Below, in pieces: positions 11,278 to 64,000 of a stretch of 64,000 nucleotides of DNA. Position numbers and translations under genes: made by a program. The stretch is from contig JARFIW010001469.1 of assembly GCA_036346225.1 (NCBI GenBank), positions 12,308,001 to 12,372,000 of the forward strand, written 5' to 3'. Under the pieces are notes generated by a model. It had not been told where the DNA came from. It saw only the letters and a program-made list of their open reading frames with translations, and made no database searches. The number at the start of each line of letters is the position of its first letter. Positions within the stretch are counted from its first letter, which is position 1. Source of the stretch: Platerodrilus igneus. Lineage: Eukaryota > Arthropoda > Insecta > Coleoptera > Lycidae.

Positions 11278-11278
11278 C

Positions 11279-11294
11279 TGGCGCATTAACGTGG
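11279..11294 (+). other. Primer-binding site
   Basis: TGGCGCATTAACGTGG begins two bases after the 5' LTR end, the expected place and the expected TGG start of a tRNA primer-binding site. The priming tRNA was not identified. Confidence 0.6.
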
Positions 11295-11410
11295 TTAAAA
11301 TTGTAAATATGGTAAACAACACACGGACGAAGTTTTAGATTGTTTTATTTCTATTTAGTGTTAGGCAGAATTAACAGTTAATATTAGTGATTTAGGAACA
11401 GGTTTCGCTA

Positions 11411-12718: not shown

Positions 12719-12942
12719 AAACGCGGAATATTTTGTTATTCTTGTGGGCAGCGGGAAGTTATGTCCACAAATTGTCCAAACTGCTCAAATAATTCAAAAA
12801 ACTATGGACAGGAAAGCGCGTAGTCAGCCGTTGCTTTTCCTCGTTTAATAATATTGCTGCTGACAAAAAGACGTGGTCGGAGTGGTTAGTAAAAGTTAAA
12901 AATTTTTGTAAATCATCTAAGGTTTTTTCAAATTTTTATAAA

Positions 12943-15994: not shown

Positions 15995-16138
15995 TAATTT
16001 ATTTTCCAATTTTTATTTTTCTTCCGCCAATTTTCTGAAAAGACTCAGTTGTCTTAAACATAATTGCGGTTGGATGTGTTAATTTCTACATTTATTTTTT
16101 CGATTTTCTTGAAATTCCTAAGAGCAATTTCAATTTTT

Positions 16139-16150
16139 CGAGGGGGGCTG
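16139..16150 (+). other. Polypurine tract
   Basis: CGAGGGGGGCTG lies immediately 5' of the 3' LTR, the place where plus-strand synthesis is primed. Confidence 0.7.
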
Positions 16151-17604
16151 TGTAACATACTGTTTCAATACGCTCTAATAGTTCTAGTATTCCTAAAAAT
16201 AGTTATTTTCTAGTTTAATTTTAGCATTCTAATTATTAGAATGAAGGTCTGCAATTGTAGCGGCTGCGGGATCACCCAAGTAGGTTCCCAGCGAAGTTCC
16301 CAGAAAGTTCTAATCCAAGAGTTAATCATTTTTCTAAAGGCACTTTACTTCAAAGGCACTAAACATGTCAGATTAGTTGCTATCTATGATTAGATGTCAA
16401 TCATGTTCTAGGACCCTATTTATGTCTGGGTGGTCGGAAGGAATTTTTCAATTAGCGGAACACTCAACTAAAAATTAGTTCGGAGAGCTACTTGTGTGGC
16501 TATCTTAGGCATTGGCAGTTTAATTAATCTTAAAGATTTACGACCGGCGTATCCCTTGTCAAGTATGAGAGCTAGGCAAGGGGTTATTTTTCAATTAACT
16601 TAAATGTATATAAGGATGCCAGCCGGTGGCAATCGGGGTTGTTTATTTCCAGACGCGTTAGAGTCTGAAGCTCGCGTTCTTGTAAGATTGAGTAAGTGTT
16701 TTATTTCTCTGAATTCAAGTGCGTGCCGTTATGTTCAAAGTTAGTTTATTTTTCTGAGTAAGTAATTATTATATATGGTATCACTATGAACTCAAAGCTG
16801 TGTTATGCATCATAAGTCATTTATTTGTTTAAATACAATATCTGTCGACTTTCATAACATACAACTTCGGGTTAAATCTCCGTTCCAGTATTTAATCCCT
16901 TTAGGATATTGTTAAAGACCGCATCTTTTGAAGGGTTTCTTATTTTATTGTGTTTCGACGTAGTCCGAGGCTTGTAATAACTAAGCCACGAATTCCGTTA
17001 TTGTACTATTTGACCCGTGTGAAGGTCATGTTTTTCCTGTTATTGATGACCCCGTGATTAAAGGAAGGTCGTTTCAGTATGCAAGTTAGTTAGACTACGG
17101 TAGCGTTAATTAATTATATGTATTGGGGTGTTTGCACCCAGAACTGTTGTTAATATTCATAAAATAAGGACTTTAGAATTGTTTAGTTAAGTTGTGTTTG
17201 TGCTAGCCGGAAACTTAATAACATTTGTCCCTGTGAAGTGACGTATTTTCTGTCCTGCATCTTAGTTCATCGCCACGAACGAAGTGCGACGAAAGCTATT
17301 ACCGCGATCGGTCCATGGGCCGTTTAATTCCCATGGTGGCGCCCTATTGTAAATATTGTTAATCACTGTATAATTTTGTATGCATATGTAATTAGGTTAA
17401 GTTAGTTAGTAGGCCGTTTAATAAAACAATTGGAATTTTGTCTTAGTGTGTTGTTGTTTAATGAACCTCCCCTTCTCACCGACTGCAGCACCTTGCGAGG
17501 CATTGTCCCGAAACGTGAGGGTACTCTAGTGTTAGAGGTCCTTCCCATTTATTATTTATTGTTAATTGGATACCCTCACGCGGTAGGTAAATATTCAAAT
17601 CACA
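16151..17604 (+). repeat. gypsy 3' LTR
   Basis: 1454 bp, the same length as the 5' LTR. Polyadenylation signal AATAAA at 17420-17425. The last bases AAATCACA are followed by the GCAA target duplication. Confidence 0.95.
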
Positions 17605-20056: not shown

Positions 20057-20637
20057 TCAGCCGTACGAGCACATTTCCTTAAACATGTCATAGGAGCAAT
20101 CGGGAGACACGTTTTCGTTGTAGGTATGCCGCAAGTTGACGTCATCTTGTTTAAATAATACAATAATAATACAGTTCTCCCGTACTAATTGTTTGAGAAT
20201 TTTTGAGTAGGACTGACAAACATACACGGACTCTATTGATTTATGACACTATTGAAAAATATTCTCGGTTCTAATCATATTTATCGCAAGCAACATCATC
20301 AAATATAAATACAGATTTTTTTGGATTGATTAGAATCAATTACCTCATCACTATCGTTGAATAGAAAATAACCAATACTTTTGGTTTTCTGTAAAACTTC
20401 TTGCAAAAGTATATATTTTGGTTGAAATAATGACTTAGAATACACGTACACTTTAGCAAAGCAAGCTCCATTTAAACCAAAAAGTCGTGATAGCATAACA
20501 TTTGCTTTTCCACATTCGCGTGAACCGCAAAATATAACGCTAAATGAGGGTGGTAATAATTTTCCATGCTCACTACTTTTTGTATCGTTGGAGCTTCTAA
20601 AATCTAAATTTACATCAGGAAGTTGATGTAAGGTCAA
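20057..20637 (-). pseudogene. Virus-type DNA-packaging ATPase (A32/FtsK-HerA class)
   Basis: The minus-strand protein starts MTLHQLPDVNLDF at 20637. It has a Walker A loop (CGSRECGKAN, where the usual T or S after K is A), and about 80 residues later a Walker B segment (VFIFDDVACDK). A downstream QSYSKI and FKQDDVNLRHTYNE region matches the family to its end at 20057. This is the ATPase type found in Polinton/Maverick and adintovirus-like elements scattered through insect genomes, where it pumps DNA into capsids. The frame is broken in an A run just before Walker B and by stops after it. It faces away from the plus-strand gene at 20763, so a shared upstream region is likely. Confidence 0.75.
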
Positions 20638-20762
20638 TCGAATTTTAAACCCGAATGTTTATTTGGTACCCCTGCAACTACTTTGTATAGGGTCTATTCA
20701 TCCTAGAAAATAAGTAGTACTATGATGCACTTTGAACATAGCGGAGGTCTCTTCAACATATT

Positions 20763-22773
20763 ATGAACAACTTCCGTTCGAACTATACATTCTTGGAGGA
20801 TATGAATTTTGTCGTCAACAGAAGCATTAATAAAAAAATTCCAACATCCTATACGTGTCCGTATAAAGTGGAACTAGCAGATGTTAAATTGGTAACTTTA
20901 TTGGAGGAGATACCAGATATGTTAGACGGACTCAAAAAAGATTATTACTATCTTTTTGACAAGGATGTAACCCAAGATTTTGCTGGCATATTTAGCAAGA
21001 TGGAGATGTGTAAATATTTAACTACAAACCATAACTTTTGCTACAAGGGCGAATACGAAGAAAACTGCGATATTATAGTTGACAACGATAAAACTGTGGG
21101 AATCGATTGTTTAACATGTTTAACAAGTTAACAACCAATGCAAGAATTAAGATATACAACAAATTTGTGTGTCAGATAGCAAGTCCTGGTGTTAATAACC
21201 AACTTGAAAATTATATACTAGATTTTTACGTTGTGTCAGATGCATTAATAAGGGAAACATTTGCGTATACTTTGCCCATGGAACGTGGTATTACGCGATT
21301 AGAAACTATGTCAGTGCGGAACAGGTGTATAATCCCTTAAAAAGACTGTTTAACCTAATTGGAAGATAGTAAGTTGTACTTCCTGAAGGCGCCAATGTAC
21401 TCGGTACCACTTGCCAAAATGTGGGATAAGCTATCGGACAAGCTACAAAATAGCTGCTGTTTAGTGTATAATAACCTACTACAGTACGTGTATTGGGGGA
21501 ATAGCAATACAAAGAAATTGACTGGCGTGCACATTAAGTTGTCCGAAAAACCAGAGGAAAGGGAAAATTGATAAAGTATGTGCTTTCGGCTTTTACTTTT
21601 AACTATTTACTTGTAAATTATTTGGAGATAGTAGAGGAGGAAGACAGCCAAAGTAAAATAAAAAACTTACACGAGTGCTACATTAAAGCAGGTAGTACAT
21701 ATTTTACACAATCTGCAACGCCATATTCTACAATTCCAAAATAATCATTTCGGAATTGGGGTTGATAGATATTCGCCCAGAGGTTGTACTACAACGTGTA
21801 AATATTGGTAGTAAACTCTAACCGTTTACGCTAAAGGAAATTGCTCCATTATGCACCCTGTAAGTGGAAGAAAAAGACAGCTGGAATTAGAGGAAATGGA
21901 TGCAAAAGGGCGAAAAGTCGGAGTATATGGAAAACACTGCGACAATACACGAACAATACAAAGATGTGTTAGATAAAGAACTTGGTATTAGAGAAAATGA
22001 GGAAGAATTAAAAGATTATTTTATATACCGAAGGACTGACTTAGATACATCCAGGTTCAACATGCTGTATGCATTTGTGGTTAGCAAGAAAGATTCTTTT
22101 AGTTATGTAGGCATTCTTGCGGTAAAGGATGGTACTAAATCCATATACTTTTTAAAAAGTTATTCTAAAAACGTATTTATCCAAAATGGCAGATGAACTA
22201 AGGAATGTGGATTTCGTATTCTTGGCGTACAACATACGCAAAGGGGTTCCACTAAACATTGTATATTTGCCTAGTAAAGAACCTTTCGGATCATTTAAAA
22301 CCGAGGGTCTTACAACCTATAACGACCGTATATCCCCAAAAGTGGTGAACTTGCAACTACGCAACAGTGAGTGGGAGAATAAAAATTCCCTCCAATACTG
22401 ACAAGAAGAAGTCGATCAAGCTACCAAGGTACGTATGCAGGATATAGTGGGAGAGCTGCGATTAAAAGATTGTCACAAGCTGTAAGAATTACACGAAGGA
22501 ATGGATCTGGTTGTCGGTGGAATCAAAGGCTTTATATATAGAGACAAACTTCGGTACATTTTGCAATTTGGAAACCTAGACGGTCTCTATATATCAAACA
22601 ATTGGCTAAAAAAGGAGATAGAGGACTTGGGTGTTGATTTAAATTTTAAGCAGCGAATAAAATTAGATAAAATTAAAACCACTTTAAACAAACATAAAGA
22701 ATGGACTTCTGTGTATAACTTTGTATTAAAATTAAGTTTAAATGGTTCCATGCTTGGTATTAAATATTATTAA
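20763..22773 (+). pseudogene. Unrecognised virus-like gene(s), copy 1
   Basis: Six successive open pieces in changing frames (20763-21131, 21107-21340, 21359-21571, 21900-22196, 22186-22401, 22501-22773) line up collinearly with the minus strand of 56760-54400 and, for the second half, with 57525-58215. Conservation across copies shows they were one or two real proteins of several hundred residues in total. The first half contains CPYKVELADVKL and NSCCLVYNNLLQYVYWG; the second holds ENEEELKDYF, a KKDSFSYVG segment and LPSKEPFGSFKTEGLTTY. I recognise no known domain. Its place next to a packaging ATPase suggests a structural or replication role, which is inference only. Confidence 0.6.
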
Positions 22774-22854
22774 ATTTTGTTATACATAATGTCAGAATAA
22801 AAATTTTAGAATAGTATTATATTGCTCTTTATTTACAAAAGGCGGTGACGCCAC

Positions 22855-22945
22855 CACGAAATAGCAGTCACACAAAAAGGGGTGCGCATGGGCAGAGGTG
22901 CGCATGAGTAGGAGCGTGCATAGGCAGGGATGTGCCTGAGCGTAC
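22855..22945 (+). repeat. GC-rich minisatellite, copy 1
   Basis: Degenerate repeats of a GGTGCGCATGGGCAG-type unit of about 14-16 bp directly follow the unknown gene. The same array follows the gene in the other two copies (54165-54290 inverted, 58290-58385). Confidence 0.6.
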
Positions 22946-23340
22946 ACGAAGGAAGCGGAAGTTAACAGTCACCAAGCATTTAATTCATTATTTGGGCGGT
23001 ATCGAGTACTTGCCGGCGTATGTAACTGTAGTAAAAACACAATTTGTACACGCAGCTTATTAATAAAATTAGTTTATCGAGGGAAGATGACAAGCGTTAC
23101 GTCATCTCTGGATGTGTGTTAACCTATGCATGGAGGCATAAAGATATAGGTCTAAGATATTTGTTTAGATTTGTATAGATTTAGTAAATCTATTGTATAT
23201 ATTAGTTTTCAGATTCTATAATTTTTAAGTTTTTCTCCCGTCTTCCCTTCTTCCAAATCCTTCCTGCTTCTATCCTGGTGGACAGAGTGTACGTGTTACC
23301 TCCACATGGTGTTCGCTGGACAACCAATATCTTGTTGACA
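22946..23340 (+). repeat. Non-coding part of the virus-like unit, copy 1
   Basis: This is collinear with the reverse complement of 53830-54165 and with 58380-58700. Shared blocks include TTATCGAGGGAAGATGACAA, ATCTATTGTATATATTAGTT and TTCCAAATCCTTCCTGCTTC. No gene is evident. Confidence 0.65.
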
Positions 23341-24185
23341 AACAACGCGAGTTATGTATCCCCCTATTTATCTATATAATAAATAATAGAATCTAATAGG
23401 AACTTATTATAAATATAAAATAAGTTAATTGCAACAATGTACTACAAGGATAAACCAGACAGGTTATTAACAGTTCATGAGAACGGATGCAATACAATGT
23501 ATTCCAGGCGATAGTGATACTGCAGGTGGCAGGTCACCGACGGTTAAGATATCCCAATTACCTAGAAAATAAAATTATAATAATGTAACAAAGTTTAGAA
23601 CTAAGAATAAAGCAGACGTGAGATCTGCAAGTTCCCACAGCCATGTGAGGGGGTAGGAACATTATAATAAGCCTAAGGACCCGGCAGTCAGTCAAAGTAT
23701 TCAGCTTTAGCATTGCAGTTTGCTTAGGCGACTCACAATATTAGTTCAATTAATTAATTAATTTTGATTTAAAGTTAAAATCAGTTTGTCAAAATTCCAC
23801 ATTAATTTCTGTATCAATTAAAATAGATGTGTTAAGTTTTGGAAGTGTTTTTTTTTAAAACGCAGCTTCCAAGGCCCAAACCTTATCTCGCGTACCAGTT
23901 GTTATTATTACAGTTTATAAATTTCTAAACCTAGTCTATGCGTTTTATCAAGTTTCTCATTAAGAGGTGGGTGGAGGGATGTGAAGGGATGTGGTAGGAT
24001 GCAGAGGGATATTGGGAGATGTGAAGGGATGTAGAGGGGCGGTGGAGGTGTGTGTGGAGGGTGGTGGAGGTGGTCTCAGAACCGGTGTTCTCTATCAATT
24101 CTAAAAACAGAACATCACTGTTTGAAAATGGTTTTAAATATCAAACACTTACGGCTTATAAAGAGTTCATTTCCAAAATTCCAGC
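23341..24185. other. Insertion unique to copy 1, with minisatellite
   Basis: The other copies run straight from the equivalent of 23340 to that of 24186; here about 845 bp intervene. The insertion contains a G-rich minisatellite at 23961-24075 built on GGGATGTGAAGGGATGT-type units. No coding region or clear ends were found. Confidence 0.5.
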
Positions 24186-24239
24186 GGTTTTAGATTTTCG
24201 GGAAATGGTTGGTAAAGGCATATGTCTTGGGTAGCGAAA

Positions 24240-24810
24240 AAAAGGTTTTAAAATGGAGTTAAATATAAATAAGCAAAAATTTAGAGGTTTAGACCTTCAA
24301 AAGTGTAACTTTGTAAGGGGTTTGCCCTATTTAAAATCTATTTACAGATTTGGACTCCCTAGAAAAATGTGATATTAATTGATACCAAACAAGATATATT
24401 TATCGCAAAAGAAACAAAAATAATCTTTTATGTGTTCGCTAGAGGGTATGTGTGTAAAACGGTGAGGGGTGGTCGGATTTTAAATCCATTTGCAAATTCG
24501 GATTATGCGTAAAATTCTACACTAATTTGATGTATCGCATGGCTAAAAAATTTTATAAAGACGGTCAGAAATCGCTGCTGGTAAAAAAATCTTAAAATAA
24601 GGGTAGCTCCCTGGAGGATGGTGCCATCTAAAAAATTCCTAGAAATTCAGGTAACTGATAAAAAATCCAATATTAGTTGATACCAAACAAGATATATTTA
24701 TTTCGAAAGATGAAATGGTTAGTTAAAGAAAGCTATTTGTTCCAGAATGCGTGTGGAAATGTGGCTGCTGGTGGAAAAGTGGCGCTGATTCCCCTGTGTT
24801 TGTACTACTA
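24240..24810 (+). repeat. Satellite monomers with palindromic core, copy 1
   Basis: About two diverged monomers of roughly 250-300 bp. Each has a GGTAGCTCCCTGG-like block, AAATTCCTAGAAATTC, a GATACCAAACAAGATATATT block, and an AAATCTATTTACAGATTT-type palindrome. The same monomers occur at 49735-50560 and 53560-53700 (inverted) and at 58800-58925 and 61850-62640. Confidence 0.65.
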
Positions 24811-44117: not shown

Positions 44118-44617
44118 GTTCTAACAGCTACGACCATTTTTAGCCCGAGTTCCAGTGGTTAACCATTTTTAAATAATCCTTTAAATTTTGGTCTACCACG
44201 ACACTCGGAAAAAGTGCCGTGCTGATCATTTCTAGCGAATTTATCGATATATATTGTCAGTTCTACATGAGTTCTAACAACTACGATCACTTTTAACCTG
44301 AGTTCCAGTGTCTAACCATTTTTAAATAAGTTTTTAATTTTGGTCTAGCACGACACTCGGAAAAAAGTGCCGTGCTGATCATTTCTAGTGAATTTTTCGA
44401 TATATATCGACAGTTTTACATGATTTCTAACTACGGCCACTTTTAGCCTGAGTTTCAGTGGCTAACCATTTTTAAATAATTTATTAATTTTCGGCATTAG
44501 GAACGCGTACAAAATTCAACTTTCGGATAACCTGCGTTCCTCCGCAAGAAAAGTCTTATAACAGGCAAGAAAAGACCTTCTGATTATTAAAGAATTACGA
44601 CAGAAAGTTTTTATTTA

Positions 44618-48819: not shown

Positions 48820-49300
48820 AAAGTATGCTTTTTTCAATATAAATGGCATAGTTAGTTAAGTTTTGGAGGACCTTAATATAGCCCCAAGACCAGAGTTGTC
48901 TACTTTTTAAGAATTTCTTCATAGCTTTGTCCCGCAGCCTCATCAAATGCCTAATTGTTAGTGTCAACCACGGAGCGGGCTTTTTGGTGATACCAATAGT
49001 TATAATTGAAGCATATTCATTAAACAGTTGGAGTAGATAGTAATTAAAAATTTCAAGTTTTTCATTAACATTATGACAATGAAATAACTGATGAAGCGGA
49101 ATGGTTTACAGTTTAGTTTTAAAGTATTGCAAATCGAGATTTTGCAAGCACCTGTAGCTTTCAAATAGCAAAAATTTATTACTGTTAAGTACTCTAATAT
49201 GACAAAAGATTAACTTACGATCAACAAGTTGGTTACAACCCGATAAAATCTGTCATAAGTCTCCCATTATTTTCGTCTTTTATCACCCCCAATACTTTTT
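48820..49300 (-). pseudogene. Jockey-like LINE fragment
   Basis: The minus strand reads DRKLIFCHIRVLNSNKFLLF near 49220, then KKPAPWLTLTIRHLMRLRDK and AMKKFLKSRQLW near 48880-48970. The PWLT...MRLRDKA...YK.LRN pattern is the linker between endonuclease and RT in jockey-type LINEs. A stop lies between the two pieces. It ends near the start of the left palindrome arm. Confidence 0.6.
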
Positions 49301-49734
49301 TGTTAATTAGCGGAATTCCATAATTGTTTTTGGATGAATAGTCGGAAGTATCGAAACGTTGCTGACAGTCCCGGCTTCATAGTTTCATAAGGATCCTAAT
49401 TTATTATTTTATAAATTAGGCTATCTGTATCTGTGTAAAAAACTCGACACCCATTTCCAAAGGCTGCGTTCATAAATGATTAGTGAAAATCGTAAATTGC
49501 CAACTTAGCTATATCCAGGAAACACATACCAACAGTAGACCATTTTCAGTGAACCCAGGACCACATTTGCACCAGCATCCACATTTGCACCCACATCTGG
49601 ACCAATTTACATGTAAATTCCCATAAGGAGGAAATGAGGGAGATGAATCTCCACCTTGCTCCGCCTTGTGGAGATGAATCTCCGCCTTGTGGAATTTTTT
49701 TACCCCAACCATCCTTACCCTAAAAATCGATAAC

Positions 49735-50560
49735 CTAATCCCTAAAATTTTTGAGATACTTCTCGGTGTCTATTGGCACTGCACCCACGAGATAAACCTA
49801 TATTGTTTGGTATCAATTAATATTAGATTTTTCTCAGCTACCCGAATTTCTAGGAATTTTTCAGATTGCATCATCCCCCAGGGAGCTACCCCCATTTTAA
49901 GATTTCTTACCTGTAGCGACTTTTGAGCGTTCTTATAAATTTTTTTTAGTCATGCGATACATCTTGTTAGTCTAAAATTTTATGTAGAATCCAAATCTGT
50001 AAACAGATTTGAAATCGGACCACGCCCTGCAAAGTTATACCCCTTTAAAGTCCTGATCTTCTAATTTTGCTATTTGCTCTATAAGCAAACCTAACAAATA
50101 GTTTTCTTCGTCTAGCCATTGCATCTTTCGAGATAAACCTATCTTGTTTGGTATTAATCAATATTAGAATTTTCTCAGCTACCCCAATCTCTAGGAATTT
50201 TTCAGATTGCACCATCCCCAAGGGAGCTACCCGAATTTTAAGATTTCTTACCTGTAGCGACTTTTGAGCGTTCTTATAAAATTTTTTATACATGCAATAC
50301 ATCTTGTTAGTCTAGAATTTTATGTAGAATCCGAATCTGTAAACAGATTTAATATAGGACCACGCCCTGCAAAATTACACACATACCCTCTGCGAGATAA
50401 ATCTTTCTCCACATTTCCACCCACGAGATAAACCTACCTTGTTTGGTATTAATTAATATTAGATTTTTTCCAGCTACCCATATCTCTTTAAATTTTTCAG
50501 ATTGCATCATCCCTAAGGGAGCTACCCCAATTTTAAGATTTTGTACCAAGATCAATTTCT
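49735..50560 (-). repeat. Satellite monomers, left arm
   Basis: About three tandem monomers of roughly 270-330 bp. Each has GAGATAAACCTA, TTGTTTGGTAT, TTTCAGATTGCATCATCC, GGGAGCTACCC and, in two of them, AATCTGTAAACAGATTT. Open frames here are by-products of the repeat. Confidence 0.8.
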
Positions 50561-50599
50561 AATCACCCTCCTTTTAATATCTACAATCCTTTAACCAAA

Positions 50600-51309
50600 C
50601 ACGTAGCAGTATTAACATAAATTAAGCATACGAAAATTTATTTTATCAATTTACAGTTTAATAAACTAATTACAATTTTACAAAGTATAACATTATTTCC
50701 GGTGCGTACCCGAAAGTTTAACCTGTAACAAAAAAAGATTAATGTGTTGTTTAAATAGACCTGTAATAAAAAGATTAATGTAAAAAGAGGAAACGTGTTT
50801 TCAGTTAATAAGACATATTATCGTTAACCTAACAATATGTTTTACCGTCCAGCGACACCACGTGGAGGTAAACACATTCAATGTAATGGGTTTTAAATAT
50901 GAGAATGGGAGGTCAACTTTCACGTAATCATCGCGTGGTTAATAATTAAAGCTGTATATAATTTTATTTTAAACGTGTATATCTTCTCCAAACAAATGCG
51001 GTTATTATAATCCGGAAAGTACGCTAAATACAAGTCAATTAACAGCAATTAAATATTGCTTACTGACCTACCTTAATTAGGTTGCTGTGCTATTAGGAAT
51101 GATGTTTAAGACTTCGTACGTATTTTCCGGATTATATGTTGTATTCTTTTTATTAAGTAATCGAATAAATCGTTCCTTCTGCTTCCAAAGAAACTCGGAC
51201 ACTCCATTGTCGACGCTGGTGTTATTTATGCGATAGCTAGCCATGCAGTTGTTAAACGCTGTGCTAATCATTTCTACCCATCTTCGTTAGTAGCGGTAAC
51301 TGATGCATT
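50600..51309 (-). other. Arm sequence with one small open frame
   Basis: No known gene. A 64-residue frame (51077-51271, minus) with EFLWKQKERFIRLLNKK is matched in the right arm near 61200-61420, so it may be part of a protein with the zinc-finger gene upstream of it. Confidence 0.4.
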
Positions 51310-51649
51310 TTATGTTTGTTGCTCCTTAAGTGTGCGGCGTACGTAGTTTTCCATTTCGAAATCGCATACTGTACACATAATTCGTGGTTGTTTCGTACAA
51401 GACCCTTTAACAGCTGGTGGCGTTGAACGTTTACTGCTTAATGACATACCGTGCTGTTTTTCCTTGTGTCGCTGTGAGCTATTCTCGTAAAAGCGATACC
51501 GCAAGACCCAGAGTTTAAGTACTTTGCTGCGGACGGCTAACCCTGGGCGATGTTACACTACGACATTTGTTCTGGTGCCGTTTGAGAGCATTTTTCCAGG
51601 TATAGGAAGCACCGCAAGGGTTGCACTTATAAACGTTTGCAGGTACCAT
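51310..51649 (-). pseudogene. Zinc-finger protein, left-arm copy
   Basis: ATG at 51649 opens MVPANVYKCNPCGASYTWKN followed by ALKRHQNKC, a C-x2-C-x12-H-x4-C finger. A degenerate second finger (RYRFYENSSQRHKEKQH) and a third Cys pair (MCTVCDFEME) follow after a frame change near 51500. About 110 residues in all, ending at 51310. Such fingers bind nucleic acid; in a mobile element they may act as DNA-binding or regulatory protein. The parent family was not recognised. Confidence 0.6.
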
Positions 51650-53540
51650 TTTAGTACAAAACAAAACCCGCACTATAGCACTTTGGTTAAACTTGTAATC
51701 GAACTAACTAAAAAGCTTACTCGAGCGTACCTGATTTATGTTCCTTATAGAATGCATACCGAAGGTTTCCGAAGACGACCGAACGATGTTGAGGATTCGG
51801 CGGGGAACTAAATGATGTCATAATCCTTGCTGCTCGTCCAATACATTTAGCGCTAATGCATGCACCTGGTTCGCTTCGTCGATGGTGCGAATGCCGTTAG
51901 TAGAAACACCGGAAAACGTCTTCCATGTTATACGGATCGCGTGCATATTAAAAATCCAAAAGGGTGGTAGCACACGCACACAAGTTGTGTGCAAGTCGTG
52001 CTGTAGAAGATGCAATGCTACTATAACCAAAAACACTTTAAACCATTACTAAGAAAATACCAACTTGTTGTCTACAGGATACTTACAACAATTTAATTTT
52101 AAATAACTTCTACGTCATATTTTAGGAAATGGGGGGTTTGAATATTTCTCCAAATGAATCACCAAGCGAAAGTATATGCTTAACGGTATTAGAATTACCC
52201 ATTAATTTCCTATTTTTACGACCGTGGTTAATTATAGATTGAAATTTAATTTGTGCACGTTCGAGCTTCTCGTAAACTAACATATTTTAGAGCAACAATG
52301 CGCTGTATAATACATGCATACCCTTCGCCGCGCTACTGCTATTCTTGTAATTGCTAGAAAAGTCACTCTCCTTTTTACTGTTAGGAGCGATGCAAAGCAC
52401 CATTTTTATACTTTCTATAGCACATCGACACTTTTCGTCTGATAATTAAATTTTGCTTCTGTAGGCTTTTACACTTTCGCATAGCGGTCGGCCGCACGTA
52501 TTGATTTCTAGAACCGGTAAGTACTCGATATCCTCCAAATAGAGAATTAGATGCTCGATGTCTGTCAACTTCCAATTCCCTCGTAAAGGTAGAAAAACTC
52601 GGTCAATCATCCATTAAACTTCGACCCGCTACCGTTTTGATAATTTCCAAACATTTTCGAACGACAATGGGCTGAGAATTTTTAAACCTCCGAGGATCTT
52701 TAAGTCGTGATCAATTACACATCCGAGCTACGCGTAAACTAACATATTTTGCAGCAACTGTATAATACATGCATACCCCTTCTCTGCGCTACTGCTATTC
52801 TTGTAGTTGCTTGGAAAAGTCAGTCGCCCTTTTTACTGCTAGGGTCGCTAAAAGCACCATTCCATACTTTATTTATAAGTGTAGCACATCGCACACTTTT
52901 TGTCGTTAATTAAATTTTTGTTTATGTAGGCCTTTACACTTTCGCTTATTTAAACATCTAATACGACCGATTAACCACTTTCGATTATTCTAACGGAGAA
53001 CCACCATACATCCCGCTGCACCGTTCTTTTTGATTCCAACGATCCTATAGGCTTCCGCACTAACACCTAACGTATCTTTCCTACTATTTGTTAAACAAAA
53101 ACTACCGGTATCGCCATTGTGGACGTAAACAGATGTTTGTGGATGTGTACGAGAGTATGTAACCATATACATTAACCAGTCTAAGCTATTTTATTTAAGC
53201 CAAAAACTATTATTTTCTAAACCACAATTAATAATCACCTTTATAGGTTTAACATTTCGACCATTTCCCAATGACTGGTGCTACGTACATGGAAACTTTA
53301 ATTTCTTATTAGAGAATTCTTATTCTCCGCGCACTGCTGCGTAGTTGCATGCTTACCTCTTTTGCAGGTATATGCTCGTTATAGGTTGTAAGACCTCGGT
53401 TTTATAACTACAATTCGTGAGACCCTTTAATTTTTAATCGTATCTTTTTCGCCTACAATACAGTAGGAGTTAGCCTACTACCAACAAATTCTAATACTGG
53501 ACCCCCATTAAATACGTCTTTAATTTTCCTACAACTTTTT
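51650..53540 (-). other. Arm sequence, unrecognised
   Basis: Non-identified sequence that pairs closely with 58990-60840. Open pieces (51818-52036, with TNGIRTIDEANQVHALALNV; 52381-52575; 52990-53172) are preserved in the other arm but have no domain that I recognise. Parts near 52500 and 54100 resemble each other (HRASN and GGYRV-like segments), suggesting an internal duplication. Confidence 0.4.
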
Positions 53541-54164
53541 GTTGACAAGTGTTATATTGTATTTATTATACGGGTAGTCACTCTTTTAAGATAAATATAT
53601 TTTGTTTGGTATCAACTAATATTAAATTTTCTAGGGACCCCAAATCTGTAAATAGATTTTAAATAGGACCACCCATACAAAGTTATGCCTTTTAAAGACT
53701 AATTTTTACCCATCTTTATTTAACTCCATCTTTAAAACCCTTTTTTTCGCTAACCAAGACATATGCTTTAACCAACCGTTTCCCTAGAAATCTAAAACCG
53801 ATGTGCCCCGCAGAATACCACGTAAAGGTAACACGTATACTCTGTCAACCAGGATAGAAGCGAAGAAGGATTTGGAAGGTGGGCGAGGAACTTAAAAATT
53901 ATGGAATTTAAAAACTAATATATACAATAGATTTACAAAATCTATACAAATATAAACAACTATCTTATATCTTTACGTCCCCATGCGTAGATTGTTGTAC
54001 TATTAGGAATGATATACCTTTTGTCATCTTCCCTCGATAAATTAATTTTATTAATTATATGCGTGTACAAATCGTGTTTTACTCCGGATACATACCGGCA
54101 AGTACTCCACACCAAATAAAAATTAGATGCTCGGTGACTGTTAACATCCGCTTCCCTCGTGTAC

Positions 54165-54290
54165 GCCCAAACACATCCCAGCCCATGAGCACCCCTGCGC
54201 ATGCACACCCCTGCCCATGCGCGCCCATGCGCGTACACCTGCCCATGCTCGCTGCCCATGAACACCCCTTTCTGTGCGACTGCTATTTCG
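54165..54290 (-). repeat. GC-rich minisatellite, copy 2
   Basis: Degenerate GCCCATGCGC-rich units (CACCCCTGCCCATGCGCG and similar), inverse of 22855-22945. It opens spurious frames on both strands. Confidence 0.7.
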
Positions 54291-54399
54291 GGGTAACGTT
54301 ACAGCCTTTTATAAATAAAGGAACAATGTTATATACTATTATAAAATGTTTATTCTGACATTATACATAACAAAATTTAAAAATATTTAATACCAAGCA

Positions 54400-56764
54400 T
54401 GGAGGCATTTAAACTTAATTTTAATACAAAGTTATACACAGAAGACAGTCCTTTCTTTATGTTTGTTGGTTTTAATTTTATCTAATTTTATTCGCAGCTT
54501 AAAATTTAAATCGACACCCAAGTCTTCTATCTCCTTTTCTAACCAATAGTTTGATACATAGAGACCGTCTAGGTTTTCGAATTGTAAAATGTACCGAAGT
54601 TTGCCTCTATATTTAAAGTCTTTGATTCACCGACAACCAGATCCATTCCTTCGTGTAATACTTGCAGCTTGTGACAATCTTTTAATCGCAGCTTTCCCAC
54701 TATATCCTGCATACGTATCTTGTTAGCTTGATCGACTTCTTCTTGTCGGTATTGGAGAAATCCTTTTTCCCACACACCGTTGTGTAGTTGCATATCCACC
54801 ACTTTTGGGAATATATGGTTGTTATAGGTTGTAAGACCCTCGGTTTTAAATGATCCGAAAGGTTCTTTACTGGGCAAATATACAATGTTTAGCGAGAACC
54901 CCTTTGCGTGTGGTGTACGCCAAGGTTACGAAACCCGCATTCCTTAGTTCGTCTTTGTTATCTGCCATTTTCGATAAATACGTTTTAGAATAACCTTTTA
55001 AAAAATATACGGATTTAGTGTCATCCTTTTCCGCAAGGACGCCTACATAACTAAAAGAGTCTTTTTTACTAACCACAAATGCATACAACTTGTAGAAACC
55101 AGATGTATCTAAGTCAGTCCATCGGCACATAAAATAATCTTTTAATTCTTCCTCATTTTCTCTAATAAGATGTTGTTTGTCTAACACATCTTTGTATTGA
55201 TCGCGTATTGTCGCAGTGTTTTCCATGTAGTCTAATTTTCTCCTTTTTGCATCCATTTCCTCTAATTCCAGTTGTCTTTTCCTTCCACTTACAGCGTATG
55301 GTATACATAATGGGGTAATTTCCTTTAGCGTAAACGGTGAGTTTACTACCAATATTTACGCGTTGTCGTACAACCTCTGGACGAATGTTAGGCGTATCTA
55401 TCAATCCCAATCCGAAATTACTATTTCTTTTGGAATTGTAGAATATGGTGTGCAGATTGTGTAAAATATGTACTACCTGCTTTAATTAGCACTTGTGTAA
55501 GATTTTATTTTATCTTGGACTCTTCCTTACTATCTCCAAATAATTTACAGGTAAATAGTTAAAACTAAAAGCCAAAGCACATACTTTATCAATTTTCCTT
55601 TTCCTCTGGTTTTTTGGACAACAATTTGCAAAGCCCGTCAATTTCTTTGTATTCCATTCCCCAATACACGTACTGTAGCAGGTTATTATACACTAAACAG
55701 CAGCTATTTTGTAGCTTGTCCAATACTTACTCCACATTTTGGAAGTGGTACCGAGTACATTGGCGCCTTTAGGAAGTATAACACTATCTTCCAATAAGGT
55801 TAAACAGTCTTTTAAGGGTTTATACACCCATTCCGCACTGACATAGCTTCTAATTGCACAGTTGTATATTGTCGCTTCCAATCGCGTAATACCATGTTCT
55901 TTGGCCAAAGTAGACGCAAATGTTTCCCTTAAACGTACATCTGGACAACGTAAAAATCTAGTATATGATTGCCAAGTTGTTTATTAACACCAGGACTTGT
56001 TATCTGGCACACAAATTTGTTGTAAATCTTAATTCTTGCATTGGTTGTTAGCCATGTTAAACAATCAATCCCCGCAGTTTATCGTTGTCAACTATAATAT
56101 TACACTTTTCTTCGTATTCCCCTTATAGCAAAAGTTATGGTTTGTAGTTAAATAATTACACATCTCCATCTTGCTAAATATACCCGCAAAATCTTGGGTT
56201 ACATCCATGTCAAAAGATAGAAATAATTTTTCGACTTCGTCTAATATATCTGGTAGTTCCTCAATAAAGTTTCCAACTTAACATCTGCTAGTTCCACTTT
56301 GTATGGAACACATATAGGATTTTGGAATTTTTATTAATGCATTCGAGGTCTTCTTTTCCGATAATTTCTTTTACTCTCTGGCCATCTTGTTACTGCTTTC
56401 CAGAAAACGGAAGCTTAGCTTTAACACCATGCCTAGCGAAACAAATCGTTGAACTTTCTTCGTAGATAGCTGTTAAATACCACAAATTTCTTTTTAGGAT
56501 AAACATCCGTTTGTTTGCAGATGCTTGTTCGGTGTCAGAAAGGTCGCAAATTTTAACCAACATTATATTGTCACAAAATGGTTCTGTAATTGGTGTGTGT
56601 AGTCCACCAGTCAGCATCTTTTCGCCTTCGACATAACAAATATTACCAATTCTGTCACCAGATTATTGTTGCACATATTTTCTGCAACAGCCATAATCCA
56701 AATCGCTCATTTGTCGGTTTCACTTTATTCCCAAGAAGTTGAGAAACGTTAATCACCTTTGAGA
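54400..56764 (-). pseudogene. Unrecognised virus-like gene(s), copy 2
   Basis: This is the longest of the three copies and shows the start: MSVSKVINVSQLLGNKVKPT near 56772. Pieces follow at 56617-56390 (ICDLSDTEQASANKRMFILK), 56300-55585 in shifting frames, 55410-54867 (basic segment GRKRQLELEEMDAKRRK, then ENEEELKDYF and a KKDSFSYVGVLAEKD segment) and 54877-54569 (SKEPFGSFKTEGLTTYNNH). The order is that of 20763-22773. The basic segment may be a nuclear localisation signal. Frameshifts are frequent, mostly single-base. No known domain was recognised. Confidence 0.6.
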
Positions 56765-56959
56765 CGCTCATGTTTACCTTCTAGCTACTATCGAATACTA
56801 AATTGAATACGAAAAAATTGTTCTCTTAGTATTCTACAGAGTGGGGGCGTATATTGCCGAAGATAGTCGAATATGTTGTTATCCACCTAAGCCGACAGGG
56901 ATGCGCATCGACATATATCCGGATAATGTAGGTGTTAATTAGGGTGAAATTCCCCATAT

Positions 56960-57077
56960 AAATTCCCCTGACCACATGACCATATGACCACATGACCACA
57001 TGACCATATGACCACATGACCACATGGCCATATGACCACATGACCACATGACCATATGACCACATGACCATATGACC
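56960..57077. repeat. Minisatellite of 9-bp units
   Basis: Runs of ATGACCACA, ATGACCATA and TGACCACAT-type units, about a dozen in all, placed in the spacer between the palindrome arms. It is followed by two small hairpins (AATGAGTTTTCTCATT at about 57088 and AATGAGTTTTCCATT near 57136). Confidence 0.9.
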
Positions 57078-57179
57078 TAATTGCTTTTAATGAGTTTTCT
57101 CATTAAAAACCCATTAACACTAATTGCTTTTTAATGAGTTTTCCATTAAAAAACCAAGTGTGGACCTAGGTTAGATAAA

Positions 57180-57524
57180 GGAAAAATTAATAGGTTGGGT
57201 CGGCGCCGGGCGGTAACCTATTTTCGGTTTTTTGGGAAAAACCTGGGTGGGTTTAATTTGAAAACTCGGGGGTCGTCTGTGTAAATGGTTGTGCATGTTC
57301 CGTGTCGTGTGGGTTGTGTTCCTTTCCCTGGGTTCTTTGGTGCGGTGCTGGTGGTTTAAACGCTCTTTTTCCGCGGGTGGGCGGGGTGAAGGTGTCGTTT
57401 TGTAGTGAAAGCGCGTCTGGGGCTTAACGTTGCGGCTTCTGGGTGAATTGTGGGCGGCGGTTCTGGTGAAAGGGTGTTGGCGACAAAGGGCGGTGGACTA
57501 ACCTTTGGGTGGGATAAAGAATTA
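57180..57524. other. Anomalous G/T-rich junction sequence
   Basis: Strikingly rich in G and T on the plus strand (for example GGGTGGGCGGGGTGAAGGTG), unlike everything else in this AT-rich window. No coding frame or repeat was found. It adjoins the damaged inner end of the right palindrome arm. Confidence 0.6.
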
Positions 57525-58215
57525 TTTTATGTGCGATGGACTGACTTAATACATCCGGGTTTTTTGTTGCATTTGGGTTAGTAAAAAAGACCTTTTAGTT
57601 ATGAGGGCTTGCGAAAAGGATGGACTAAACCGTATAAAAAGGTTATTCTAAAAACGTTTTATCAAAATGGCGATAACAAAGACGAACTAAGGAATGCGGG
57701 TTTCGTAACCTTGGCGTACACCACACGCAAAGGGGCCAAACATTGTTTTTGCCCGTAAAGAACCTTTCGGATCATTTAAAACCGAGGGTCTTAAATAAAA
57801 ACCATATATTCCCAAAAGTGGTGGAATGCAACTACCAACGTGTGGGGAAAAGGATTTCCCCAATACCGACAAGAAGAAGTCGATGCTAACAAGATACGTA
57901 TGCAGGATATAGTGGGAAAGCTGCGATTAAAAGTTGTCCGCTGCAAGAATTACACGAAGGTGGATCTGGTTGTCGGCGGAATCAAAGACTTTAAATATAG
58001 AGGCAAACTTCGGTACATTTTCAATTCGAAAACCTGCGGTCTTTTGTATCAAACTATTGGTTAGAAAAGGAGATAAAGACTTGGGTGTCGATTTAAAAAC
58101 TGCGAATAAAATTAGATTTCCCTGAAACAAACATGAAAGGACTGTCTTCTGTGTATAACTTTGTATTAAAATTAAGTTTAAATGACTCCATGCTTGGATT
58201 AAATATTTTTTTTTA
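57525..58215 (+). pseudogene. Unrecognised virus-like gene, copy 3 (second half)
   Basis: Matches the last part of copies 1 and 2 from the segment encoding ELKDYF onward, through EPFGSFKTEG-like and DLVVGGIKDFKYRGKLRYI-like parts to the end. About one base in fifteen or so is missing relative to copy 2 in the first 300 bp, destroying the frame. The first half of the gene is absent. Confidence 0.65.
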
Positions 58216-58289
58216 TGTTTGAAATAAACATTTTATAATAGTATATAACATTGTTCTTTATTTATAAAAGGCTGTACGTTACCCCGAAA

Positions 58290-58385
58290 AGCAGTCCGAG
58301 AGGGGCAGCGCATGGGAGGGGTGGCGGGGGCGCATGGGGTGTGATGGCGGGGTGCTCATGGGCTGGGATGTTTGGGCGTACACGA
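58290..58385 (+). repeat. GC-rich minisatellite, copy 3
   Basis: GCGCATGGGAGGGGTGGCGG and similar units at the same place relative to the gene as in copies 1 and 2. Confidence 0.6.
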
Positions 58386-60840
58386 GGGAAGCGGATGTTA
58401 ACAGTCCCGCATCAATTTTTATTTGGTTGGATCGTGCGTATGTATCCGGGTAAAAACGGCCGTTATTAATAAAATTTTTATCGAGGGAAGATGACAAAAG
58501 GTAATCATTCCTAATAGTACAACAATCTACGCATGGGGGTAAAGATATAAGATAGTTGTTTATATTTGTATGATTTTGTAAATCTATTGTATATATTAGT
58601 TTTAAATTCCATAATTTTTAAGTTCTTCGCCCACCTTCCAAATCCTTCCTGCTTCTATCCTGGTTGACAGAGTATACGTGTTACTACGTGGTATTCGCGG
58701 GACACCGGTTTTAGATTTCTAGGAAAGGTTGGTTAAAGCATATGTCTTGGTAGCGAAAAAGGGTTTTAAAGATGGAGTTAAATAAAGATGGGAAAATTAG
58801 TCTTTAAAAGGCATAACTTTGTATGGGTGGTCCTATTTAAAATCTATTTACAGATTTGGGGTCCCTAGAAAATTTAATATTAGTTGATACCAAACAAAAT
58901 ATATTTATCTTAAAAGAGTGACTACCCCGCGTATAATAAATACAATATAACACTTGTCAACAAAAAGTTGTAGGAAAATTAAAGACGTATTTAATGGGGG
59001 GTCCAGTATTAGAATTTGTTGGTAGTAGGGTAAGTCCTACTGTATTGTAGGCGAAAAGATACGATTAAAAAGATTAAAGGGGTCTCACGAATTGTAGTTA
59101 TAAAACCGAGGTCTTACAACCTATAACGAGCATATACCTCAAAAGGGTAAGCATGCAACTACGCAGCAGTGGCGGAGAATAAGAATTCTCCAATAAGAAA
59201 TTAAAGTTTCCATGTACGTAGCACCAGTCATTGGGAAATGGTCGAAATGTTAAACCTATAAAGGGATTATTAATTGTGGTTTAGAAAATAATAGTTTTTG
59301 GCTAAATAAAATAGCTTAGACTGGTTAATGTATATGGTTACATACTCGTACACATCCACAAACATCTGTTTACGTCCACAATGGCGATACCGGTAGTTTT
59401 TGTTTAACAAATAGTAGGAAAGATACGTAGGTGTTAGTGGGGAAGCCCATAGGATCGTTGGAATCAAAAAGAACGGTGCGGCGGGATGTATGGTGGTTCC
59501 GTTAGAATAATCGAAAGTGGTTAATCGGTCGTATTAGATGTTTAAATAAGCGAAAGTGTAAAGGCTACATAAACAAAAATTTAATTAACCGACAAAAAAG
59601 GTGCGATGTGCTACACTTATAAAAAAGTATGGAATGGTGCTTTTAGCGCCCTAGCAGTAAAAAGGGCGACTGACTTTTCCAAGCAACTACAAGAATAGCA
59701 GTAGCGCAGAGAAGGGGTATGCATGTATTATACAGTTGCTGCAAAATATGTTAGTTTACGCGTAGCTCGGATGTGTAATTGATCACGACTTAAAGATCCT
59801 CGGAGGTTTAAAAATTCTCAGCCCATTGTCGTTCGAAAATGTTTGGAAATTATCAAAACGGTAGCGGGTCGAAGTTTAATGGATGATTGACCGAGTTTTT
59901 CTACCTTTACGAGGGAATTGGAAGTTGACAGACATCGAGCATCTAATTCTCTATTTGGAGGATATCGAGTACTTACCGGTTCTAGAAATCAATACGTGCG
60001 GCCGACCGCTATGCGAAAGTGTAAAAGCCTACAGAAGCAAAATTTAATTATCAGACGAAAAGTGTGCGATGTGCTATAGAAAGTATAAAAAATGGTGCTT
60101 TGCATCGCTCCTAACAGTAAAAAGGAGAGTGACTTTTTCTAGCAATTACAAGAATAGCAGTAGCGCGGCGAAGGGGTATGCATGTATTATACAGCGCATT
60201 GTTGCTCTAAAATATGTTAGTTTACGAGAAGCTCGAACGTGCACAAATTAAATTTCAATCTATAATTAACCACGGTCGTAAAAATAGGAAATTAATGGGT
60301 AATTCTAATACCGTTAAGCATATACTTTCGCTTGGTGATTCATTTGGAGAAATATTCAAACCCCCCATTTCCTAAAATATGACGTAGAAGTTATTTAAAA
60401 TTAAATTGTTGTAAGTATCCTGTAGACAACAAGTTGGTATTTTCTTAGTAATGGTTTAAAGTGTTTTTGGTTATAGTAGCATTGCATCTTCTACAGCACG
60501 ACTTGCACACAACTTGTGTGCGTGTGCTACCACCCTTTGGATTTTTAATATGCACGCGATCCGTATAACATGGAAGACGTTTTCCGGTGTTTCTACTAAC
60601 GGCATTCGCACCATCGACGAAGCGAACCAGGTGCATGCATTAGCGCTAAATGTATTGGACGAGCAGCAAGGATTATGACATCATTTAGTTCCCCGCCGAA
60701 TCCTCAACATCGTTCGGTGTCTTCGAAACCTTCGGTTGCATTCTATAAGGAACATAAATCAGGTACGCTCGAGTAAACTTTTTAGTTAGTTCGATTACAA
60801 GTTTCCAAAGTCTATAGTGCGGGTTTTGTTTTGTACTAAA

Positions 60841-61170
60841 ATGGTACCTGCAAACGTTTTAATGCAACCTTGCGGTGCTTCCTATACCTGGAAAATGCTC
60901 CAAACGGCACCAGAACAAATGTCGTGTGAACATCGCCCAGGGTTGCCGTCCGCAGCAAAGTACTTAAACTTGGGCTTGCGGTATCGCTTTTACGAGAATA
61001 AACCTTCAGCGACACAAGGAAAACAGCACGGTATGTCATTAAGGTAAACGTTCAACCCCCAGCTGTTAAAGGGTCTTGTACGAAACAACCACGAATTATG
61101 TGTAAGTATGCGATTTCGAAATGGAAAACTACTAGCCGCACATTTAAGGAGCAACAAACATAAAATGCAT
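60841..61170 (+). pseudogene. Zinc-finger protein, right-arm copy
   Basis: Mirror copy of 51310-51649. It begins MVPANV at 60841, but small deletions remove the first Cys pair from frame and put the finger residues (CGASYTWK) in a shifted frame; RYRFYEN follows at about 60980. Less intact than the left copy. Confidence 0.55.
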
Positions 61171-61849
61171 CAGTTACCGCTACTAACGAAGATGGGTAGA
61201 AATGATTAGCCAGCGTTTAACAACGATGGCTAGCTATCGCATAAAAACCCAGCGTCGACAATGGAGTGTCCGAGTTTCTTTGGAAGCAGAAGACGATTTA
61301 TTCGATTATAATGAAAAAGAATACAACATAAATAAGTCCTGCGAATGCTACGGCGTCTTAACACTCAACGGCAACTGTGGTGCGAAGAATCCGATGTTGA
61401 ATGCTGTTAATGACATTGTGGTTTAACGTCTTCGTGATCTGAAATATACCGCAGTCTTGGAAACCATACAGATTCTAAATCAGAGGAATTATGAAACATG
61501 GTGTCGCGGTTGGTCTATGGAAAGTGCTCATATTTAGAAAACTAAATTAATAAGTATTACCTGAATGACGTGTCTAGGAGGTAAAAATATTGTTAGGTTA
61601 CGATAATGTGGTTTATTTAAACTGTAATAAAATTCGTTCTGTATAGTTACTCTTTATTACAGTTTTAAAATTGTAGATTTTGTTATTAAATTTAAGGTAT
61701 CCTGTGGTGGAAATTGATAATGTTTATAAGTGTTTGATAATGTAACGTGTCATTTTAATGATCTGTCTTACGTGATTCGGATCTACATAAGATTCGTAGA
61801 TATTACAAGGATGGCAGCTGTATAAAATTGACGCATCGCTTCGTGTACA

Positions 61850-62640
61850 GAAATCTTAAAATGTCGGGTAGCTCCTGGGGATGGTGCAATCTGAAAAATT
61901 TAAAGAGATTGGGTAGCTGGAAAATTCTAATATTATTAATACCAAACAAGGTAGGTTTATCTCGTGGGTGGAAATGCTGGAGAATAGATGCTTATGAGCT
62001 CGCAGAGGGTATAGTGGTAACTTTGCAGGGCGTGGTCCGATTTCAAATCTGTTTACAGATTCGGATTCTACATGAAATTCTGAGACTAACAAGATGTGTG
62101 CATGTATAAAATTTTATGAAGAACGCTCTAAAAGTCGCGTACAGGTGAAGAAATCTTAAAATTGGGTAGCTCCTGGGGATGTGCTAATTCTGAAAAATTC
62201 GCTAGAAGATCTGGGTAGCTGAGAAAATTACATTTGCATTAATACACAAACAAGTTATGGTTTCTATCGTTTCGAAAGATGCATGTAACGAAGTTAAATT
62301 TTGTTAGGTTTGCTTTTAGGAAATAGCAAAAATTAAAGATCAGGACTTTAAAGGGGGTATAACTTTGATTGGTCCGATTTCAAATCTGGTTTAAGTTTGG
62401 ATTCACTAAAATTTTAGACTAACAAATGTATGTGATAAAAATTTTATAAGAACGCTCAAAAGTTTCTACAGGTAAAATTTTAAAAGGGGTATCCTGGGTT
62501 TGGTGCAATCTGAAAAATTCCTAGAAATTCACTGAAAATCTAATTTAATTGTCCAAACAATATAGGTTTATTAGCCCGAAAGTATCTCAAAATTGGGTAG
62601 CTCAGGATTAGGTCTATCTGATTTTTAGAAGGATTGGTTG
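61850..62640 (+). repeat. Satellite monomers, right arm
   Basis: About three monomers of the family at 49735-50560 in the opposite orientation, with GGGTAGCTCCTGGGGATG, CCAAACAAGGTAGGTTTATC and CAAATCTGTTTACAGATTCG. The last monomer (62460-62640) is the most diverged. Confidence 0.75.
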
Positions 62641-62810
62641 GGGTACAAATGAATTAAACCACAAGGTCGGAGTTATCTCAGGCGTGAGCAAGTGGTAGAT
62701 TCATCTCTCACGGAAATGTAAATTGGTCAGATTGTATGGTGCAAATGTGGATGCTAGGATGCAAATCGTGGATAACTGGATTCCATGAAAATGGTTACTA
62801 CGCTAACATA

Positions 62811-64000
62811 TGATAGGTTTATTAAAATATGTTTCAGATTTAAGAAGTTCCACTACCACAAGGTTTTTATCGAAGATTGTAACACTTTTGAATAACGGGC
62901 TGGAAATCCTGGTTTCGGCTCCATATCTTACTTCCCAGTTTTGCACAAGTTTCACATTACAACGTTTGCGTATATTCTCCATCGTTTCCCAAAGACTGCA
63001 TTATTCATTAGCTTGAACAAGTTTATCTCAAATTCATTCCTTGTTCGTTTCCGAAGTTCAGTATTGAGGTCAATGTAAGATTTTAGCCAGCAGCTTTGTT
63101 TAAATTTTAGGACTCCATGAATTGCAGATAATTTAAGTCCATTTTCTAAAGCTTGTTTCAGGTTTCTATAATGGATCACATATCTTCTTTTAGCATTTAG
63201 TGTAGCCATTAATTTGGTACTTTGAGTTTTTGATACAGGCGGTTTTCCAATCTTCAGATCAATGTACTCCGGACAGAATGGGATGTCTTTATCTACATCA
63301 TGAATAGATTCCAGATACTCGAAATCCACCTCCAAGATATAACCATCATTCGCATTATCATGAACTGATGTCACGTCGATGTTAGTGTCCACCCATTCAA
63401 ATCCTCCATAGGGCAAGGGTTGACTCATGGCCCATCCATATTGATTATTAACGTCATAATGCATAAGATACACATCGGGGTTGGAAGGATCATACGTTAG
63501 TAAATATTTCTTATTCGCCGATGCATGCGATTCCGAACACACTTGACTAAGTCCTCCCCGTATACCCTTCTCAATAAATAACAACGGATCAATGTCAGTC
63601 AATAACTCAGGTTCCTGGCGTGTATGCTTCAACATTCCGCCCCAAGTGTATGCTGGAAGGGTGTAATAGTGGGCGGCGTCTAGTCCATAAGCTAAATGAC
63701 CACTTGCACGAAACTGTTCAAATACTTCAACCAATAGCATCACATCGGTCTTAAGGTATAAGTCAGAGTACTGCCCCTGTTTTGAATATTAAATGCTTTC
63801 CACACTTTTATGCATGCGCATACTGCTTGTTAGTAATTCCTCTACATTCCAGCAAATTGTAAAACTCTTGTTGAGTAGGTAGTGAAGCGTAATTCAGCTT
63901 TTCAAAGGAATCTATGAAATCGTACGGGTATACACCTTTTTTAGTTAGTAATTCAAACTTCTCATTTGTCAATCCAGAAAATTCATTTTTATTAACCGAT
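62811..64000 (-). pseudogene. Protein-primed type B DNA polymerase (Polinton/adintovirus type), partial
   Basis: The replication polymerase of Polinton-like elements, which primes from a terminal protein. Minus strand from the window edge: KGVYPYDFIDSFEKLNYASL (about 63930-63870), a stop or frameshift near 63810, then an open part 63743-62952 with HYYTLPAYTWGGMLKHT, EKGIRGGLSQ, the palm motif HYDVNNQYGWAMSQPLPYGG and FKLMNNAVFGK. After that motif the frame shifts and the conserved MENIRKR part continues in another frame to FNKPII near 62815. The similarity stops where the right palindrome arm begins, so the final catalytic (YxDTD) segment is missing. The N-terminal part lies beyond the window. 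Confidence 0.85.

Follow-up and report, generated by a model that had tools for sequence, protein, structure and literature searches.

A stretch of 64,000 bp from the genome of the beetle Platerodrilus igneus (contig JARFIW010001469.1, positions 12,308,001 to 12,372,000 of the forward strand; hereafter the window) contains recurring pieces of a large gene without a recognised family and, beside one of them, a putative viral packaging ATPase. To what kind of mobile element does this gene belong, and does the ATPase travel with it? A sequence-only reading of the window had proposed a virus-like element family with unrecognised genes, present in three copies. We find, in keeping with its core, a very abundant multi-copy element of apparent Polinton descent whose main gene is constrained, and we consider it probable that this element is a non-autonomous Polinton derivative, shaped as an imperfect palindrome, with a polymerase supplied in trans. 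The ATPase apparently does not belong to the element family.

Long inverted arms, paired ends and variable centres

Positions 49534-62801 form a single 13,268-bp insert with long inverted arms that splits a Polinton-type PolB gene (Table 1). Self-BLAST of the window aligns one arm, 51106-55144 (-), with the other, 61361-57515 (+), at 92.6% identity, and the outer arms including their satellites, 49534-50546 and 62799-61845, at 80%. The collinear recurrence of the gene, already noticed from the sequence alone, was borne out: the pieces at 20824-23314 (+) match 56340-53813 (-) at 84% nucleotide identity (2600 columns, E 0.0), and the 3' half at 22009-23322 returns at 57515-58704 (76%, E 0.0). 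The count of three separate copies was not, as the second and third are the two arms of one insert, the second arm holding just a 3' part of the gene. Downstream of every gene copy in the window lie a GC-rich minisatellite region, a common block and satellite monomers of approximately 340 bp, as the earlier reading had described.

The host genome (2.71 Gb, 1723 contigs) was searched with P0004, a relative of the large-gene protein; of 21,151 first-look candidates, 91 places were scored, with identities of 60-63%. We read 20 copies, taken from the best matches, in stretches of 10 kb. In these copies and the window, the order downstream of the gene is minisatellite, block, spacers and a second gene, up to the limit of the stretches. 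Exceptions are L033, where this order is lost inside the minisatellite, L034 and L035, which stop shortly into the second gene, L038, with a deletion in the minisatellite, and L040, with a rearrangement within a spacer. The right-hand satellite and terminus (END) were read in the window and in five extended copies; a few stretches also just reach the satellite. Upstream of the gene is a centre with a TGACCACA-like repeat, followed by the same parts inverted, with a variable inward reach. The inverted arm extends to the satellite only (L033, L036, L040), to the second gene or spacers (L024, L025, L027, L031, L037, L039), to the minisatellite (L023) or to part of the large gene (L026, L028, L029, L032, L034, L035, L038, L041 and the window); L022 and L030 show no inverted arm within the stretch read. 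The layout from left to right is END, satellite, second gene, spacers, minisatellite and (in some) part of the large gene, then the centre, then large gene, minisatellite, spacers, second gene, satellite and END, with a total size of roughly 10.6-17.4 kb.

Mapping of the copies and their ends, a check proposed with the sequence-only reading, showed AGTAG...CTACT termini and a perfect 6-bp target duplication in all five genome copies for which both ends were read (TATGTG, AACATG, TACAGG, TCCGGA and CAAGTT). Polintons have AG...CT ends, and terminal inverted repeats with a 6-bp target duplication are defining features of theirs. The window insert has lost one terminal base, at its right end. With the END of L025 as genome query, 40 matches of 1315 candidates were scored, 26 of which form 13 inverted pairs spaced 10,571-17,381 bp apart, where chance would give 0.01 pairs within 20 kb; the interior was read for one of the 13 (L025).

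Identity between the two arms of a copy is 97.3-99.7% in 13 of 16 comparable stretches, with medians to other copies of 87-95%, and in 12 of the 16 the own arm is the closest relative. In a tree of one arm region (B3 plus the beginning of the second gene), all 12 copies with both arms long enough have their two arms as sisters (support at least 0.92 in 11, and 0.44 in L024), and the 15 copies examined have 15 distinct inner junctions. Since the arms are sisters within copies and the junctions all differ, the simplest reading would be that, as a new copy arises, one of its arms serves as the template for the other. That the arms were instead evened out after insertion by gene conversion or crossing-over, with later deletions producing the variable junctions, is rather improbable, for while inverted repeats are known conversion substrates and L026 is as near to another copy as to its own arm, both the junctions and the sister relation along the tested region stand against it; this process would in any case be compatible with the other origins weighed below. 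L034 and L035 (G000:C930:108158 and 124720), two copies of like orientation at a distance of 16.6 kb, show 99.4% identity across 8 kb and stem from one tandemly duplicated insertion.

A constrained large gene and an arm-borne second gene

In the window, the large gene is broken. A frame of at least 780 codons (full length approximately 795) is present in 9 of the 20 genome copies read, and the 36 pairs among these nine have a median dN/dS of 0.35 (range 0.26-0.79; median dN 0.020, dS 0.062). The large gene is under purifying selection, and the value is not near 1, as it would be for a repeat family free of coding constraint. As the frame is open at 60-63% identity to P0004, which comes from another source, and dN/dS is below 1, the comparison suggests that the 795-aa protein matters for the spread of the element.

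The longest gene piece of the second copy identified one relative, P0001, out of 72 candidates (312 aa, 44%, E 9e-35), and none among 300 candidates when longer proteins were searched; the copy-1 piece identified P0002, P0003 and P0004 (53-61%; 3 of 5 candidates). P0002 and P0004 show that a small upstream frame in the insert is the N-terminus of the protein. Relatives were absent from viral contigs for two large-gene queries and P0001, from prokaryote genomes for two large-gene queries, and from phages for P0004. The order of the motifs D-[IV]-T-Q-D, RxKIYNK and TRLEATIYN is reminiscent of rolling-circle initiators of the Rep_trans kind; profile searches gave this no support, the Rep_trans profile (PF02486) not being among the matches of P0001-P0004 (E<=5) or of an intact copy (E<=1). 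Most likely, the 795-aa protein serves the element in its replication or in recognising its ends. Three leads were set aside. A FolD-like match of P0002 (PDB E 0.002; NCBIfam E 7e-4) was not listed for P0004 and had E 0.21 with a three-protein profile. A Rep_trans comparison via two phage records was dropped, one record being another Rep family and the other having no match. The plasmid matches of P0004 were TraE-like or unannotated, at E 0.4 or worse among the matches listed, and were taken as chance.

The second gene, predicted as a zinc-finger gene in the arms, has a C2H2 frame that is weak in the window and clear in genome copies. It is open over 276 codons from stop to stop in L041, and the profile searches proposed earlier, which returned nothing credible for the large gene, find two C2H2 fingers here (Pfam). 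Over 129 columns, the last 125 residues of the L041 gene share 33% identity (E 9e-9) with L050, which reads in frame with a PolB copy of the host genome and lies 820 codons upstream of the part of that copy that had been matched. The two sequences both reach ININKY-P; there the element gene stops and PolB continues. By this alignment, the C-terminal part encoded by the second gene is related to the N-terminus of the Polinton polymerase of the same genome. A weak match to this part (E 1.1) is also given by the PolB of L001, a Polinton-like virus contig that was found with the window PolB and served as the source of PolB, integrase and major capsid protein (MCP) queries. The second gene is often broken in other copies, with no stop in 3 of 8 near-full matches; dN/dS among these three is 0.23-0.35. 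No relatives of it were found in viral contigs.

The ATPase, the polymerase copies and neighbouring repeats

Copy 1 is a truncated second element whose gene pieces (20824-22773, +) lack the first 148 codons; self-BLAST of the window shows no inverted partner upstream. A part of approximately 0.87 kb (23315-24181), between the minisatellite flank and the common block, does not align to 49534-62801, and a GTGGAGGGAT tandem repeat lies at 23971-24070. The ATPase adjoins copy 1 where the 148 codons are missing. Its proposed role as an element gene seems not to hold: it occurs once in the window and was not found in the 20 genome copies read (tblastn, E<=0.01, 10-kb stretches). The earlier reading had allowed that it might lie in an unrelated insertion, which largely appears to be the case for the ATPase, and the gene family stands without it. 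Its assignment to the A32 type fared better in part, being backed by motifs, by a weak collinear alignment to the ATPase of a Polinton-like virus (for the two pieces, 28 and 169 of 2000 shuffles score at least as high) and by relatives in the host genome, but the larger piece finds nothing in Pfam or PDB searches. In viral contigs the window ATPase piece has no relatives, and the ATPase of L001 matched only itself. The host genome has 150 scored ATPase places of 6550 candidates, itself included; the others are 42-43% identical, many with open frames of 231 codons. Dozens of these copies have an identical score, which suggests that an element carrying the ATPase recently spread in a burst.

A preference of the element for inserting into Polintons gained no support: no Polinton gene was found in its flanks in the genome stretches read (tblastn, flanks of at most about 3.5 kb), so it may be by chance that the window insert lies inside PolB. 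In the host genome, 139 PolB places were scored among 12,668 candidates. Among the 139 listed, read by eye, 16 pairs lie less than 20 kb apart, 15 divergent, one on the same strand (C904) and none convergent, versus 0.14 close pairs expected by chance; part of the PolB copies are therefore inverted-paired too. An inverted PolB copy lies at G000:C1397:12375115-12375903, about 3 kb past the window end, so a paired PolB element may carry the insert in one of its arms.

Two further repeats lie outside the element. A direct repeat, 9824-11277 and 16151-17604 (1454 bp, 98.8% identical), flanks frames at 11396-15994 that are Gypsy-like by eye, and 9824-17604 is probably a young LTR (long terminal repeat) retrotransposon; the sole window match of the L001 integrase (15203-15583, E 5e-5) falls within the Gypsy-like frame and outside the element. 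A separate inverted-repeat unit at 41716-45398 has tandem monomers of 153-157 bp and outer arms 93% alike, and self-BLAST shows no similarity to the element.

Table 1. Features of the element, its insertion site and copy 1, in window coordinates.
Feature	Position	Strand	Evidence or remark
Copy 1, truncated second element: gene from residue 149, minisatellite region, block, satellite, CTACT at 24805-24809	20824..24809	+	
A32-like packaging ATPase, two pieces, beside copy 1	20057..20658	-	motifs; host-genome relatives
Whole element with long inverted arms	49534..62801	n/a	self-BLAST arms; position between consecutive PolB parts; termini AGTAG/GTAG
Large gene, broken here (795 codons where intact)	54435..56771	-	tblastn with intact genome copy, residues 1-795, 46% aligned through breaks; relatives P0001-P0004
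Inverted 3' part of large gene, other arm	57516..58117	+	gene residues 557-778, two overlapping matches
Central spacer with (TGACCACA)n, palindrome turn	56781..57515	n/a	
GC-rich minisatellite and 3' flank of large gene	53831..54330	-	
Second gene region, arm 1, broken here (zinc fingers and PolB N-terminus-like part)	51107..52050	-	
Second gene region, arm 2, broken here	60447..61360	+	
Satellite monomers (approximately 340 bp), arm 1	49781..50600	n/a	
Satellite monomers, arm 2	61836..62571	n/a	
Terminal 247 bp (END), arm 1	49534..49780	n/a	related END genome-wide in inverted pairs
Terminal region (END), arm 2	62576..62801	n/a	
Left target-site duplication ACCAAC	49528..49533	n/a	4/6 bases equal right partner GCTAAC
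Right target-site duplication GCTAAC	62802..62807	n/a	terminal element base absent before it
Polinton-type PolB, part before insert; insertion site, not element	62812..63966	-	DNA_pol_B_2 E 6.2e-19 for the open part, 62952-63788; L001 PolB residues 693-1092 match 63966-62812
Polinton-type PolB, part after insert	49230..49533	-	L001 PolB residues 1094-1192 match 49533-49230, E 8e-12

Polinton derivative or another kind of element

The available portions of PMC10175614, which also treats the origin of bidnaviruses, and of PMC4028283 cover the Polinton gene set, and that of PMC2836005 covers integrase relations. L001 and window PolB queries had no match in stretches L022-L046 (tblastn, E<=0.01); of PolB, the element has just the isolated N-terminus-like stretch. 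The combination of ATPase, PolB and capsid gene on one element, which would mark an adintovirus-like provirus, was not seen, the capsid search being insensitive. Because the terminal inverted repeats and 6-bp duplications of Polintons are present (in all five copies with both ends read) and none of the genes tested for was found, we file the element as Polinton-derived, not as a Polinton. It resembles Polintons (Mavericks), self-synthesizing transposons that in animals are adintovirus-like, in its long inverted termini, target duplications, AG...CT ends, a gene related to the PolB N-terminus and a size of 10-17 kb; unlike them, it has no full PolB, integrase, ATPase or capsid gene that our queries could find, its arms reach 5-7 kb and are seemingly re-formed in each copy, and its 795-aa gene has no recognised family. 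The PolB of Bidnaviridae is Polinton-derived according to the available portions of PMC10175614 and PMC4061559. Bidnaviridae are likewise a reduced Polinton offshoot, and genes on separate molecules are one possible reading for our element, but the latter is integrated and multi-copy, without a capsid gene found or a full PolB on the molecule. Foldback transposable elements have very long inverted arms with internal tandem satellites. The element shares these, but differs in its two conserved protein genes, its 6-bp duplication and a new inner junction in each copy. A literature search over titles and abstract openings found no published description of such an element.

In the Polinton-derivative reading, the element would be copied as linear DNA by PolB from separate PolB elements, some of them inverted-paired. 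At a point that varies between copies, the growing strand would fold back or switch template, so that one arm is remade from the other, and the product would be inserted by a Polinton-type integrase. Single distant queries detected neither an integrase nor a capsid gene in the element, so the supply in trans is inferred.

Several observations weigh against this reading. No RVE integrase was found in L022-L046 (tblastn with one distant L001 query, E<=0.01, an insensitive search), nor a capsid gene, the L001 MCP, again a single distant query, having no match there at E<=0.01. The PolB stretch L050 contains nothing that corresponds to the second gene's zinc fingers, and just 30 of the 139 listed PolB copies sit in close divergent pairs. 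Among the matches listed, 14 of 40 ENDs are without a partner; 5 of 21 stretches (L022, L030, L033, L036, L040) show no own inverted arm of at least 300 bp. In 4 of 16, the own arm is not the closest relative: identities to own and other copies are 98.6% and 98.7% in L026, 91.6-91.8% and 95.9% in L034 and L035, and 88.9% and 91.0% in the window. Ordinary gene conversion can also make arms alike, and the 20 copies read, being drawn from the best P0004 matches, are biased to intact copies. For the Rep-like function of the large gene, sequence searches of Pfam, PHROGs, NCBIfam and PDB gave no credible match, and two structure models of the protein were unusable (mean pLDDT 38.9 and 33.3).

An autonomous DNA transposon of a new kind is unlikely but deserves some weight; here the 795-aa protein would itself act as the transposase and generate the 6-bp duplications, and the polymerase-like arm gene would be a captured fragment. 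Besides the 795-aa gene, which is under selection, no large gene was seen in the element, and its first-look candidates outnumber those of PolB (21,151 versus 12,668, although query lengths differ and the two counts are not strictly comparable). However, no transposase profile matched, and a link to Polintons is indicated by the long inverted ends, the AG...CT termini, the 6-bp duplication and a second gene related to PolB.

We give a low chance to a multipartite Polinton-like virus or transposon of which the element would be a single segment, with polymerase, ATPase and 795-aa gene on separate palindromic molecules. PolB, ATPase and large gene are each amplified (139 of 12,668, 150 of 6550 and 91 of 21,151 candidates scored), and the predominance of divergent pairs among close PolB copies (15/16) resembles the element arms. 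Neighbours within 20 kb are rare by eye, with, apart from the window, one gene-ATPase pair (C968, 13 kb), one PolB-ATPase pair (C1215, 4.3 kb) and no gene-PolB pair, but the lists hold the best-scored copies only, making this rarity weak evidence; moreover, no capsid gene was found. In its fullest form, a Polinton lineage would have split into single-gene palindromic molecules, with thousands of candidates each and an arm rebuilt every round, i.e., a multipartite system with snap-back replication, which we likewise think doubtful.

If the element is indeed a non-autonomous Polinton derivative, Polintons would have abundant gene-carrying parasites or segments. The P. igneus genome would then preserve a many-copy record of a linear inverted-repeat genome rebuilding its ends, a process better known from defective viral genomes. 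In addition, the conserved 795-aa protein family can now be named, and its function is testable.

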